Positions 20,403 through 29,314 of a DNA stretch of 37,395 bases are shown piece after piece. The stretch is from a virus. The DNA lies in IMG/VR virus record IMGVR_UViG_3300034135_000033, positions 1-37,395 of that record; one strand, given 5' to 3'. Numbering within the stretch: the stretch's first letter is position 1; every line of letters begins with the position of its first letter. The notes below the pieces were generated by a model. That model did no database searches. It was not told the origin of the DNA and worked only from the letters and a program-made list of their open reading frames with translations. Position numbers and translations under genes: made by a program.

Positions 20403-20416
20403 ACGGCGGCCAGTTG

Positions 20417-22228
20417 ATGGTGGGCCGGGGGACACATCTAAGCGCCGCTCAGCTCGCGGAGCTTCAGCTGCCGGGCCTGCCCGGCAGCAAGCGCGGCATC
20501 AACATGCTCGCCGATCGGCTCGGCTGGGCTTTCACCGAGGAGCGGGCGCGTGGCGGTTGGTGCCGTCTCTACGACGTGGCCCAGCTGCCCGAGCAGGCTC
20601 GCGCGGCGCTGGAGGCCAAGCGCGCCAAGCTCGTGCCGGCCAACCTCCGGCCTGTCGGCCGCCCTAAGGGCTCCGACTTCTTCACCCGCAATCCAGACGT
20701 CGCCGACGCCGTCGAGGCCCTGCTCGCCAAACAAGAGTTCGCCGCTCCCCGCATCCTAGAGCTACTCGCGCCCACCTTCGGCCTTCGCATTCCTACGCGG
20801 CGGACGCTCGCGCGCTTCATCCTTAAGCTTGAGCAACAGAAGGCGGCGCTCCTCACCTCCTTCCGCGATCCCGACGCCTTCAAGAGCAAGTACAAGATCG
20901 CGCTCGGCCGTGCCGATGGCGGCGTAACCTACGCCCACGAGGTGTGGGAGCTGGACACCACCAAGGTCGACGTCCTTACCAAGGGCGGCCGCAAGATGGT
21001 TTTCGGCGTGATCGACCGCTACTCGCGCCGCGCCCGCTTCATGGTCGGCGAGAGCGAGAGCGGGCAGTCGGTGCGCCGCCTCCTCGTCGAGACGATCCGC
21101 GCCTGGGGCGTGATGCCGGAGATGATCGCGACCGACAACGGCTGCGGCTACATTAACGCCTCGATCGTCACCGCGCTCGAGACGCTCGGAATCAAGCACT
21201 GGCGCTGCCCGCCGGGCACTCCCGAGAAGAAGCCGTTCGTCGAGCGCCTGTTCGGCACGTTCACCCGCGAGCGGGCCGAGCTGCTCGCCGGCTATGCCGG
21301 CCATAGCGTCGCCGAAGCGCAGAGGCTCCGGGGCCGGGCGAAAAAGGAAACCGGCCGCGCCGTCATCGTGCCCGAGCTGACACCCGAGGAGCTGCAACAG
21401 ATCCTCGATGCGTGGGTCGACGGGGTCTACCACCACCGCGAGCATAGCGGCATCCGCACCACTCCGTTCCGGCGCTGGCAGTCCTCCCCGGTGCCGGCAA
21501 CGGCCGCGCCGAGCGATGAAGTTCTGAAGGTCGCCCTCTCCGCGCTCGTCGGCAGCTGCGTCGTCGGCAAGAAGGGCGTCCGCTGGAAGCGCGGCTCCTA
21601 TTGGTCGCCGAGCCTCGTCCCCTTCATGGGCCGCGCCGTGCAGCTGCGCCGCGACGAAGACGATCTCGGCGCGCTGTTCGTCTTCGACGAGGACGGCCAC
21701 TTCATCGACACGGCTGTGAACGCCGAACGAGCGGGCCTGTCCGAGGAAGAGTTCGCCCGCGCCGCGAGCCGCCAGCAGACCGAGTGGATGAAGACCGCCC
21801 GCGCCGAGGTGCGAAGGAAGCAGGGCGCCTTCCGCTTCGAGGATGCGCGCGACGCGTTGCTCCGCTCCGATGCCGAGGCCGCCGGCCGTCTGGTCAACCT
21901 TCCCCCGCCCGCGACTGCGCGGACCACGCCGCAGATGGACAGCATCGCTCGCGCGCCGACGCCGCCCGTTCCGACCGCCGCGGCCATTGAGGATGCGGTC
22001 CGCCGCACAGCTCCGCGGACGAAGATGCCGGAGCTGACGCCGGCCGCGAAGGTCGCATGGGCCGACCGCATCATCCAGGCCGCCAAGGCCGGCGCCGCTG
22101 TCGACCCCGACGAGCTGAAGCGGGCGGAGCTGTTCGCCGCCTCGACCACCTACCGCGCCGAGAAGCTGATCAGCGGCCACTTCGGCGCCGCCCCTCTCCC
22201 GATCCACGACCACCGGAGGCAAGCATGA
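20417..22228 (+). CDS. A: Mu-type DDE transposase A
   Basis: This 603-residue protein is the strand-transfer enzyme for replicative transposition. The N-terminal 70 residues match the Mu-type DNA-binding module (LPGSKRGINMLADRLGW, then WCRLYDVAQLP). The catalytic core has the DDE triad: Asp180 in VWELDTTKVD, Asp240 in MIATDNGCGY and Glu276 in KKPFVERLFG, with 35 residues between the last two, as in DD35E enzymes. The beta-barrel domain follows (YWSPSLVPFMGRAVQL). Length is close to MuA (663). A TTG directly before the ATG is an alternative start. The stop overlaps the start of B (ATGA). The C-terminal tail is Ala/Pro-rich and likely carries the B-interaction region. Confidence 0.96.
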   Translation: MVGRGTHLSAAQLAELQLPGLPGSKRGINMLADRLGWAFTEERARGGWCRLYDVAQLPEQARAALEAKRAKLVPANLRPVGRPKGSDFFTRNPDVADAVEALLAKQEFAAPRILELLAPTFGLRIPTRRTLARFILKLEQQKAALLTSFRDPDAFKSKYKIALGRADGGVTYAHEVWELDTTKVDVLTKGGRKMVFGVIDRYSRRARFMVGESESGQSVRRLLVETIRAWGVMPEMIATDNGCGYINASIVTALETLGIKHWRCPPGTPEKKPFVERLFGTFTRERAELLAGYAGHSVAEAQRLRGRAKKETGRAVIVPELTPEELQQILDAWVDGVYHHREHSGIRTTPFRRWQSSPVPATAAPSDEVLKVALSALVGSCVVGKKGVRWKRGSYWSPSLVPFMGRAVQLRRDEDDLGALFVFDEDGHFIDTAVNAERAGLSEEEFARAASRQQTEWMKTARAEVRRKQGAFRFEDARDALLRSDAEAAGRLVNLPPPATARTTPQMDSIARAPTPPVPTAAAIEDAVRRTAPRTKMPELTPAAKVAWADRIIQAAKAGAAVDPDELKRAELFAASTTYRAEKLISGHFGAAPLPIHDHRRQA

Positions 22229-27267: not shown

Positions 27268-27499
27268 AGAACGGCGGAGGCGCCCGCTTCCCCGCGCTGA
27301 CCAGCTGCGGCGGCACCGCGAGGAGATGCAGTTCGCGCTGGTCAATAACTGCTCGCTCGAGGAGGCCCGACGCCGGCTCGCCAGCTATCGGGAACATCTG
27401 CCACGGCTCGCGGCGCCCCTCGAGGACGTCGTAGCCGAGCTGCCGCTGGCGGCCGCCGAGACGGCCGATCGCCCCCTCCAATGGTGGCAGCGGGACTGA
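27260..27499 (+). CDS. Small basic helical protein (79 aa)
   Basis: This 79-residue protein starts with a strongly basic stretch (ARERRRRPLPRADQLRRHRE), followed by a helical segment NCSLEEARRRLASYRE. It overlaps the LexA-like gene by eight bases, and its stop overlaps the GemA start. The function is not recognised; RNA or DNA binding is plausible from charge alone. Confidence 0.65.
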   Translation: MARERRRRPLPRADQLRRHREEMQFALVNNCSLEEARRRLASYREHLPRLAAPLEDVVAELPLAAAETADRPLQWWQRD

Positions 27500-28212
27500 T
27501 GGCGAAAGCGTTCAGCTCCATCGCTGCCAAGGCGCTTCAATCGGCTGCCGGCAAGTCCGACAGCCGGGCGAAGCTGATGGGCGCGATCCGCGCCGCCTGC
27601 AATCGCAAGCAGATCTCCGACGACGACCGCAAGGCGATCCAGCTCCGGATAACCGGCGTCGCCTCGATGGCCGACATGGAGATCGGCGACCTCGCCAAGC
27701 TGCTCGACCACCTCAACAGCGACTGGAAGGGGCCGATGGGTCACCGCGCCTACGTCGGCAAGACGAAGGCGCTTTGGTGGAGCCTCTACTGGCTAGGCGC
27801 GATCAACGAGCCCGGCGACGCCGCCCTGGACGCCTTCGTGAAGCGGCAGACCGGCAAGAGCTACCTCCGCTTCCTCGGGCACCGAGAGGCGTTCCGGGTG
27901 ATCGAGGCGCTGAAAGCATGGGCGGCTCGGGAAGACGTCATCTGGCCGACCGAGGAGAAGCTCCAAGAGCGCCAGCGCACCGACCCCGGCGTCGACATGG
28001 CCCAGCTCGAGCGTCACGCCGTCCTCGAGGCGCTCTCCGTCCGCCTGCGGCGCTTCGGCGCGATGAGCTACTTCTACGCGCCCTACTGCGAGGCGGCGCT
28101 GAAGCTCGCCCCCAACCACTTCACCTGGTCACCCGTCGAGCTGGACGCCTGCATCCGCCTCCTCGGCAAGCGCCTCCGCCGCGAGCTGGGCAAGAGGGAG
28201 GCGAGCCAGTGA
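27499..28212 (+). CDS. gemA: GemA-like regulatory protein (Mu gp16-like)
   Basis: This 237-residue protein fits the Mu GemA/DUF1018 family: a leading helix KLMGAIRAACNRKQISDDDR, the IQLRITGVASMADMEIGDL segment, and KALWWSLYWLGAINEPGDAA with YLRFLGHREAFRVIEALKAW. Mu GemA affects host DNA gyrase and late functions. It lies in the middle region just before the Mor-type activator, as in Mu. The start is the ATG at 27499, whose first base is the last base of the preceding stop. It is somewhat longer than typical members because of a C-terminal helical extension. Confidence 0.85.
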   Translation: MAKAFSSIAAKALQSAAGKSDSRAKLMGAIRAACNRKQISDDDRKAIQLRITGVASMADMEIGDLAKLLDHLNSDWKGPMGHRAYVGKTKALWWSLYWLGAINEPGDAALDAFVKRQTGKSYLRFLGHREAFRVIEALKAWAAREDVIWPTEEKLQERQRTDPGVDMAQLERHAVLEALSVRLRRFGAMSYFYAPYCEAALKLAPNHFTWSPVELDACIRLLGKRLRRELGKREASQ

Positions 28213-28787
28213 GCCTGTGGCCCTTCGGTCAGTTGTCGATGTTCGGCTACAGGGTGATCCTTGCCGATCCGGCATGGGCCTTCGAAAACTACTCCGAGGC
28301 TGGTGAAGGCCGGAATGCCAACCAGCACTATCCGACGATGACGCCGGACCAGGTGGCCGATCTCCCGGTCGGCCACCTCGCCGCGCGCGACTGCGCGCTA
28401 TTCCTCTGGGTGACTGACCCTCTGCTCGACCGAGGGATCGAGGTGCTGAAGCATTGGGGCTTTCGCTACACCACCGTCGCCTTCACTTGGGCGAAGCGGA
28501 CGTCGACGGACGCCAGCTGGCATATGGGGACGGGGTACTACACCCGCGCCAACCCGGAATCCTGTCTGCTCGGGATCGCCGGCGAGATGGGCCTGCCGAA
28601 AAGTCGTGCTGTCCGCCAACTGATCGTCGAGCCGGTCCGGGAGCACAGCCGCAAGCCGGACCGCATCCGCCCCGACATCGAGGCGCTGTTTGATGGCCCT
28701 TACGTCGAGCTGTTCGCCCGCAGCCAGCGTGACGGCTGGGATTGTTGGGGGAACGAGACAGGCCGATTCGCCGAGGCGGCCGAATGA
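28209..28787 (+). CDS. MT-A70-type adenine-N6 DNA methyltransferase
   Basis: This 192-residue methyltransferase of the MT-A70 family has the catalytic motif as DPAW (residues 20-23, normally DPPW). Conserved segments HYPTMTPDQVADLPV, ALFLWVTDPLL, GFRYTTVAFTWAK and the C-terminal HSRKPDRI with VELFARSQRDGWDCWGNE follow. Such phage enzymes modify adenine in the phage genome and can protect against restriction. The GTG start overlaps the GemA stop. It retains an N-terminal GQLSMFG segment (Gln8 to Phe12) similar to beta-clamp-binding peptides. Starting at the ATG at 28239 would remove it but leave the catalytic core whole. Confidence 0.9.
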   Translation: MSLWPFGQLSMFGYRVILADPAWAFENYSEAGEGRNANQHYPTMTPDQVADLPVGHLAARDCALFLWVTDPLLDRGIEVLKHWGFRYTTVAFTWAKRTSTDASWHMGTGYYTRANPESCLLGIAGEMGLPKSRAVRQLIVEPVREHSRKPDRIRPDIEALFDGPYVELFARSQRDGWDCWGNETGRFAEAAE

Positions 28788-29314
28788 GCAAGTACGGCGA
28801 CGACTTCCGCAAGGGCGCCTCGCTGGTGATCCCGGAGGACATTCAGCCGGGGCCGGGCTGGACGGAGCAGATGCTCGAGCTGGCGGACCACATCGGGAAC
28901 CGCGCGACTCTGCAGCTGGTAGAGCGGTTCGGCGGTGAGCAGCTCTACGTCCCGGTAGATCCGCACTCGGGGGACGTAGCGGCCCGGATCCGGGAGGTCA
29001 TCGGCGCTCGAGCGACGGAAATCCTCTGCAAGGTCTATCGCCGGGAGTTCATCGAGATCCCGGCCGCCAAATACGCGCTCGCCAGAGCCCAGCGGCATGA
29101 CATCATTGCCGCAGTGCGATCCGGCGATATAAGCGTCAGCCGAGCAGCACGGATCCTCGGCACGTCGAGGACCTATCTGTCCTTCCTCGTCAACCAAACC
29201 GACGAGGGGACCGAGGGCGCGGGATGGTCCGCGTCCAGGTCCGGCACGGTCCGACTGCCAGGCCAGCTCGACCTGTTCGGGGAGCCCGAGGACGAGGAAG
29301 ACTCTGTCCGCTGA
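28784..29314 (+). CDS. mor: Mor-type middle/late transcription activator with clamp-binding-like tail
   Basis: This 176-residue protein contains the Mor/C family core: WTEQMLELADHIGNRATLQL, then LVERFGGEQLYVPV (about residues 45-58). A helix-turn-helix follows at about 107-136 (IIAAVRSGDISVSRAARILG, TSRTYLSFLV). Mor and C of Mu activate middle and late promoters by binding dyads near -43 and contacting RNA polymerase. This is the only such protein here, so it probably serves all late promoters. A flexible tail after residue 137 ends with GQLDLFGEPEDEED, where QLDLF (161-165) matches the bacterial beta-clamp-binding consensus. The first late-operator palindrome overlaps the end of this gene. 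Confidence 0.88.
   Translation: MSKYGDDFRKGASLVIPEDIQPGPGWTEQMLELADHIGNRATLQLVERFGGEQLYVPVDPHSGDVAARIREVIGARATEILCKVYRREFIEIPAAKYALARAQRHDIIAAVRSGDISVSRAARILGTSRTYLSFLVNQTDEGTEGAGWSASRSGTVRLPGQLDLFGEPEDEEDSVR

Follow-up and report, generated by a model that had tools for sequence, protein, structure and literature searches.

A C-terminal peptide resembling sliding-clamp-binding motifs is conserved in the Mor/C activators of transposable phages

The window analysed here, a 37,395-nucleotide stretch of viral DNA (IMG/VR record IMGVR_UViG_3300034135_000033), carries a Mu-type transposase gene (20414–22228, + strand; phrog_310, E 8.6e-75) and, in the same phage, a gene for a Mor-type late or middle activator, P0001 (28784–29314, + strand; 176 amino acids, ATG start). 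The local gene order runs gemA, MT-A70, mor and then DUF2730 and a Mu Gp27 gene, in which gemA (27481–28212, + strand) is assigned to the Mu gp16 family by PF06252 (E 1.3e-21) and by its place in the Mu gene order. The synteny of gemA and mor is shared with Mu, with the MT-A70 gene lying between the two in the window. The position of mor, after gemA and upstream of the lysis and head genes, is that of the Mor/C family in phages with a Mu transposase.

The assignment of P0001 as a Mor-type activator, proposed in an earlier note on this DNA from the letters alone, holds up in profile searches. P0001 matches phrog_836, 'late transcriptional activator' (E 1.1e-19), and a profile–profile comparison with Mu Mor/C gives 95.9% (E 6.4e-9) with an alignment that extends through the tail described below; the Pfam Mor family (PF08765) scores below threshold (16.6 bits, cut-off 24.9). 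Two AlphaFold2 models place the structured part at approximately residues 27–139. It begins with two half-domain copies, at residues 25–62 (28856–28969, +; IG...GG..YVP; helix–helix–strand in the model) and residues 62–97 (28967–29074, +), which hhalign matches to each other at 96.5% (E 7.7e-10). Such a tandem pair of IG..tL.lV...GG..lyVP half-domains (residues 25–97, 28856–29074 in the window) is found in phrog_836-type activators, and possibly represents a fused pseudo-dimer; Mu Mor appears to have a single copy. C-terminal helices with a helix–turn–helix (HTH) follow at residues 96–139 (29069–29200, +), as indicated by the model and by weak HTH Pfam matches. Foldseek searches with the P0001 models returned no significant PDB match, and the best viral match was the Mor-like factor of phage Mano (E 0.012).

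Beyond the HTH, P0001 has a linker (residues 140–160; 29201–29263, +; pLDDT ~41–58), the pentapeptide QLDLF (residues 161–165; 29264–29278, +; codons CAG CTC GAC CTG TTC) and an acidic end, GEPEDEEDSVR (residues 166–176; 29279–29311, +). Translation of the open reading frame at 28784–29314 thus bears out the pentapeptide that the earlier note had reported; its start at 29264 was placed correctly, and the end given, 29280, lies two bases past the motif. The stretch LVNQTDEGTE directly after the HTH (residues 135–144; 29186–29215) is strongly conserved in the clade of P0001, and in the alignments the linker keeps LVNQTDEG at its start within the close clade and is variable over the remainder. 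Mean pLDDT is 41–61 over residues 141–176 in the two models, one of which was built on a 19-sequence alignment without the named-phage rows and loses confidence past residue 140. These values agree with the description of the tail as disordered-looking, and the tail beyond residue 140 is consistent with predicted disorder.

QLDLF, in this putatively flexible tail (pLDDT ~41–61), conforms to the clamp motif Qxx[LM][FL]. Peptides that bind the bacterial beta clamp take the forms Q-phi-x-[LM]-[FL] and Q-phi-x-[LM]-x-[FL] (PMC13254535), with QL(S/D)LF as consensus (PMC9690074), so the resemblance to clamp partners that had been pointed out is borne out by published motif forms. Peptides of the Qxx[LM][FL] or Qxx[LM]x[FL] type are shared by Pol III alpha, RecB, Hda, MutS, SocB, TnsE and insertion sequence (IS) transposases; these are proteins of replication, repair, regulation or transposition, whereas Mor and C are transcription activators. 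Given the composition of the family, an exact QL[SD]LF would arise by chance in the last 25 residues with p ~3e-5, and the looser Qxx[LM][FL] in about 1.5% of cases. We regard conservation in homologues as the decisive evidence for QLDLF.

To assess conservation, Mor-like proteins were collected from IMG/VR contigs and phage records, giving 100 proteins in 45 clusters at 60% identity, after four records had been set aside before counting (frameshift, wrong frame or contig edge). Single-sequence searches of phage and genome contig collections gave no matches and alignments were required. The tail was absent from every search pattern in the scans that yielded almost all homologues; one tail-adjacent pattern (FGEPEDEE) was used, in the first single-sequence scans only. 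With the motif defined as Qxx[L/M][F/L], or its six-residue variant Qxx[LM]x[FL], within the last 25 residues, it is present in 37 of the 41 clusters outside a clade of lytic phages (33 as a pentapeptide and 4 as a hexapeptide). Shuffled tails gave a mean of about 1.8 clusters with the motif and, in 5000 shuffles, never more than 8. Among other conserved open reading frames from the same loci, 3 of 250 clusters had the pentapeptide (Fisher p 1.8e-32); because the clusters are not fully independent, such p values should be read as indicative only. Remnants of the motif persist in the four exceptions, three of them lacking the Q (TMDLF, EPDLFE and SGDLFE) and one reading QLPLPGL. In the 45-cluster alignment, column identity is 0.87 for Q, 0.80 for L and 0.73 for F, placing these positions among the most conserved in the protein; 7–25 residues of linker precede the motif and 0–14 residues follow it. 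Position 3 is most often D or S, as in QL(S/D)LF. Position 2 is aliphatic in P0001 (L) and in most of its clade and is often P, R, G or H in the Mu-type branch, for which affinity may therefore be weak.

The motif is not peculiar to the window phage but is found in nearly every Mor/C protein of transposable phages, so the alignment of homologues that had been proposed as a check came out strongly in favour of the pentapeptide, and the idea that the feature sets P0001 apart among Mor/C proteins does not survive. Mu Mor ends in RQYQPSLL, with QPSLL as its last five residues, and Mu C ends in RRHQPDLFSPETPK, in which the motif portion is QPDLFSPETPK (tail peptide with QPDLF, HQPDLFSPETPK). Pentapeptides also occur in the tails of D3112 (QSTLFH), Rhizobium RR1-B (QFDLFENT), Vibrio martha (QPNLF), Shewanella MuM16-2 (QPDLF), Chromohalobacter YPCBV-1 (QYSLL), SuMu (QSVLF), a Mannheimia phage (QATLF), Ochrobactrum POA1180 (QGSLF), a Bcepmuvirus member (QGKLFADEP...) and, as QMSLF, in a further Mor/C tail; the six-residue variants include QLSLPF (Pelagibaca P1, QLSLPFQND), QGKLDL (B3-like Fc02, QGKLDLGDGLA) and QRALEL. 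The tail of Alteromonadaceae B23, QADMFSEGEAQ, contains QADMF, which is identical to the motif lying internally in E. coli Pol III (PMC13254535). A candidate clamp-binding tail peptide, for alphaproteobacterial DnaN, is GQLDLFGEPEDEED. Mu Mor and C (PF08765, phrog_836, phrog_532) thus resemble P0001 in family, in position after gemA, in an HTH that precedes a C-terminal tail and in the tail motif; P0001 differs in its duplicated N-terminal half-domain, its longer linker and its acidic end.

An out-of-sample gene gave the same picture. In Rhodobacter phage RC1, a gene annotated 'hypothetical' (L171:3103-3477, AGH58052.1) was picked by its position beside a methyltransferase, with the MT-A70 protein of the window as the probe, so that homology to P0001 played no part in finding it; it matches phrog_836 (E 5.1e-25) and ends in DPRQMRLF. 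The MT-A70 methyltransferase just upstream of mor in the window has a QLSMF of its own near the N-terminus (28230–28244), which we considered as a second clamp motif and rejected, as it is missing from the syntenic RC1 enzyme. Two further features of the family were noted in passing. A second clamp-like peptide near the N-terminus is common in Mu-type proteins (Mu C, Mu Mor and the proteins at loci L063, L059, L060, L162 and L139), with M-QHDLF in Mu C (L012:1964-2386), TEDLF in Mu Mor, QLDLL in Shewanella MuM16-1 and QDDLF, QSELF, QSDLF and QPSLF in others. In several D3112-like Pseudomonas phages (for example, MP22, MP38 and DMS3), the Mor-type activator is annotated 'putative integral membrane protein'.

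The Mor-like activators of the lytic phages ep3, Mano and FoX5 and of a 41-kb contig (L167) lack the motif, and these genomes lack a Mu transposase. A Mu transposase is present in 39 of 48 records; the nine without it are five fragments and four full-length phages, and the latter four are those that also lack the motif. In profile comparisons, the match of the window clade to the lytic group stops before the motif, whereas its match to the B23/YPCBV-1 group extends across the motif. Because the four lytic clusters form one clade, and so represent roughly one event, the association between motif and transposition is suggestive only. A search for DNA_pol_A in the motif-less lytic phages found none, which leaves unsupported the idea that they dispense with the motif owing to a PolA of their own; clamp dependence is thus no obvious explanation for the missing motif. 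Near their C-termini, the lytic-phage proteins at L057, L068 and L069 share an AANDN/PANDN-like stretch in place of the clamp-like motif.

Conservation could in principle be imposed by the DNA rather than by the peptide, through a promoter or another element lying over the 3' end of mor. This is a real concern because in Mu the promoter Pm overlaps the end of mor (Mu gene order; primers in PMC4390567). Among 33 cluster representatives, however, Q is encoded by CAG in 22 and CAA in 11, position 4 by all six Leu codons and ATG, and position 5 by TTC in 15, TTT in 15 and CTG in 3. The codons for Q, L and F are free to vary, and selection therefore acts on the peptide and not on overlapping promoter DNA. 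As the shuffled tails and the 250 control clusters exclude a fortuitous match, we consider both chance and a DNA-level constraint refuted, and give them hardly any remaining probability.

Clamp-binding tails on transcription factors have a precedent in T4, in which the C-terminus of gp55 is a conserved clamp epitope, set off by a divergent linker (PMC2988020), that serves clamp-activated late transcription (PMC2988020; PMC7892883). Like gp33 and gp55 with the gp45 clamp, Mor and C are transcription factors with a C-terminal clamp-like epitope behind a variable linker, and replication-coupled late transcription is proposed as common to both. In T4, a phage clamp acts with a sigma-like and co-activator pair, whereas Mor and C belong to an unrelated HTH activator family that would presumably use the host beta clamp. 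P0001 is likened to gp33 and gp55 by layout and hypothesised role; its profile matches are to Mor.

On this basis, we propose that a DNA-bound, presumably dimeric Mor/C activator inserts its flexible tail into the hydrophobic pocket on DnaN, the host beta clamp, which would be loaded wherever the phage is copied by replicative transposition. Such a tether would raise the local concentration of the activator on replicating phage DNA, or aid recruitment together with RNA polymerase, so that middle and late genes would be expressed best from replicated or replicating copies. The logic would be that of gp33 and gp55 on gp45, except that the clamp would be the host's and the activator an HTH protein. 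Mu replicates with the host replication machinery. Middle transcription in Mu may also depend on Mu replication; the open-licence papers searched contain no direct statement of such a requirement, and the point carries no weight in our argument. We infer docking on DnaN because bacterial beta-clamp motifs allow the same residues as the tail and likewise come in forms of five and six residues, because gp55 provides a precedent, because Mu relies on host replication and because Mu late genes are expressed after the start of Mu replication (PMC4461284). From these sequence comparisons, it is likely that the Mor/C tail binds DnaN. That Mor/C-driven transcription is coupled to replication seems only slightly more probable than the contrary, and the full proposal, in which the tail anchors the activator to the host clamp and thereby couples middle and late transcription to replicative transposition, is the reading that we cautiously favour.

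The main counter-evidence to clamp coupling is biochemical. Purified Mor suffices with RNA polymerase for promoter activation, and the same is true of C (PMC4287176; PMC4461284). The clamp is therefore not obligatory in vitro, and its effect, if any, should lie in enhancement or targeting. Activation by Mor requires the alpha and sigma C-terminal domains (PMC4390567; PMC4287176), and C contacts the beta prime subunit (PMC4461284), which favours an account in which the peptide, instead of binding the clamp, makes a conserved RNA polymerase contact on which activation depends, for example with beta prime, the beta flap or the sigma or alpha C-terminal domains. Recent PDB entries for Mu Mor and C (9l0x, 9l0y and 9vw8, identified by molecule names) could show the tails against RNA polymerase. 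The variation that the tail tolerates, however, with Q fixed, L or M at position 4, F or L at position 5 and a variant one residue longer, is that of the bacterial clamp motif (PMC13254535); a linker of variable length and a variable number of residues after the motif suit a free tether; and the Mor-like activators of lytic phages manage without the motif. We therefore hold a polymerase contact to be improbable. It is likewise doubtful, although slightly less so, that the tail binds the clamp for other ends, such as removal or degradation of the activator at forks (as for SocB and Hda), marking of phage DNA against a host system or an influence on the replisome during replicative transposition. 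The same sequence evidence backs clamp binding as such, SocB is a clamp-dependent protein with a role outside transcription (PMC9690074) and clamp binding is frequent among transposition proteins (PMC5371812). Against this, Mor and C are dedicated activators of middle and late genes, and among transcription factors with a C-terminal tail of this kind gp33 and gp55 of T4 offer the best precedent.

Taken together, clamp coupling of Mor and C remains a plausible reading, and the tail motif is a conserved, putatively functional element that is missing from the annotation of the Mor/C family. A search of open-licence papers, with most subscription journals outside its scope, found no clamp role for Mor or C, and the priority of the idea is for that reason not established; in the same literature, clamp-activated transcription is presented as a peculiarity of T4-related phages. 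Should the tails of Mor and C prove to bind DnaN, a well-studied group of phages unrelated to T4 would have arrived at the same solution with the host clamp. We judge it an even call whether, across the transposable phages, middle and late activation is coupled to replicative transposition via the host beta clamp, through the Mor/C C-terminal peptide and also, in phages of the Mu branch, through another clamp-like peptide near the N-terminus. Clamp-activated transcription would then have arisen twice independently, its second form being present in Mu itself, and the timing of Mu middle and late expression relative to replication would have a mechanism.
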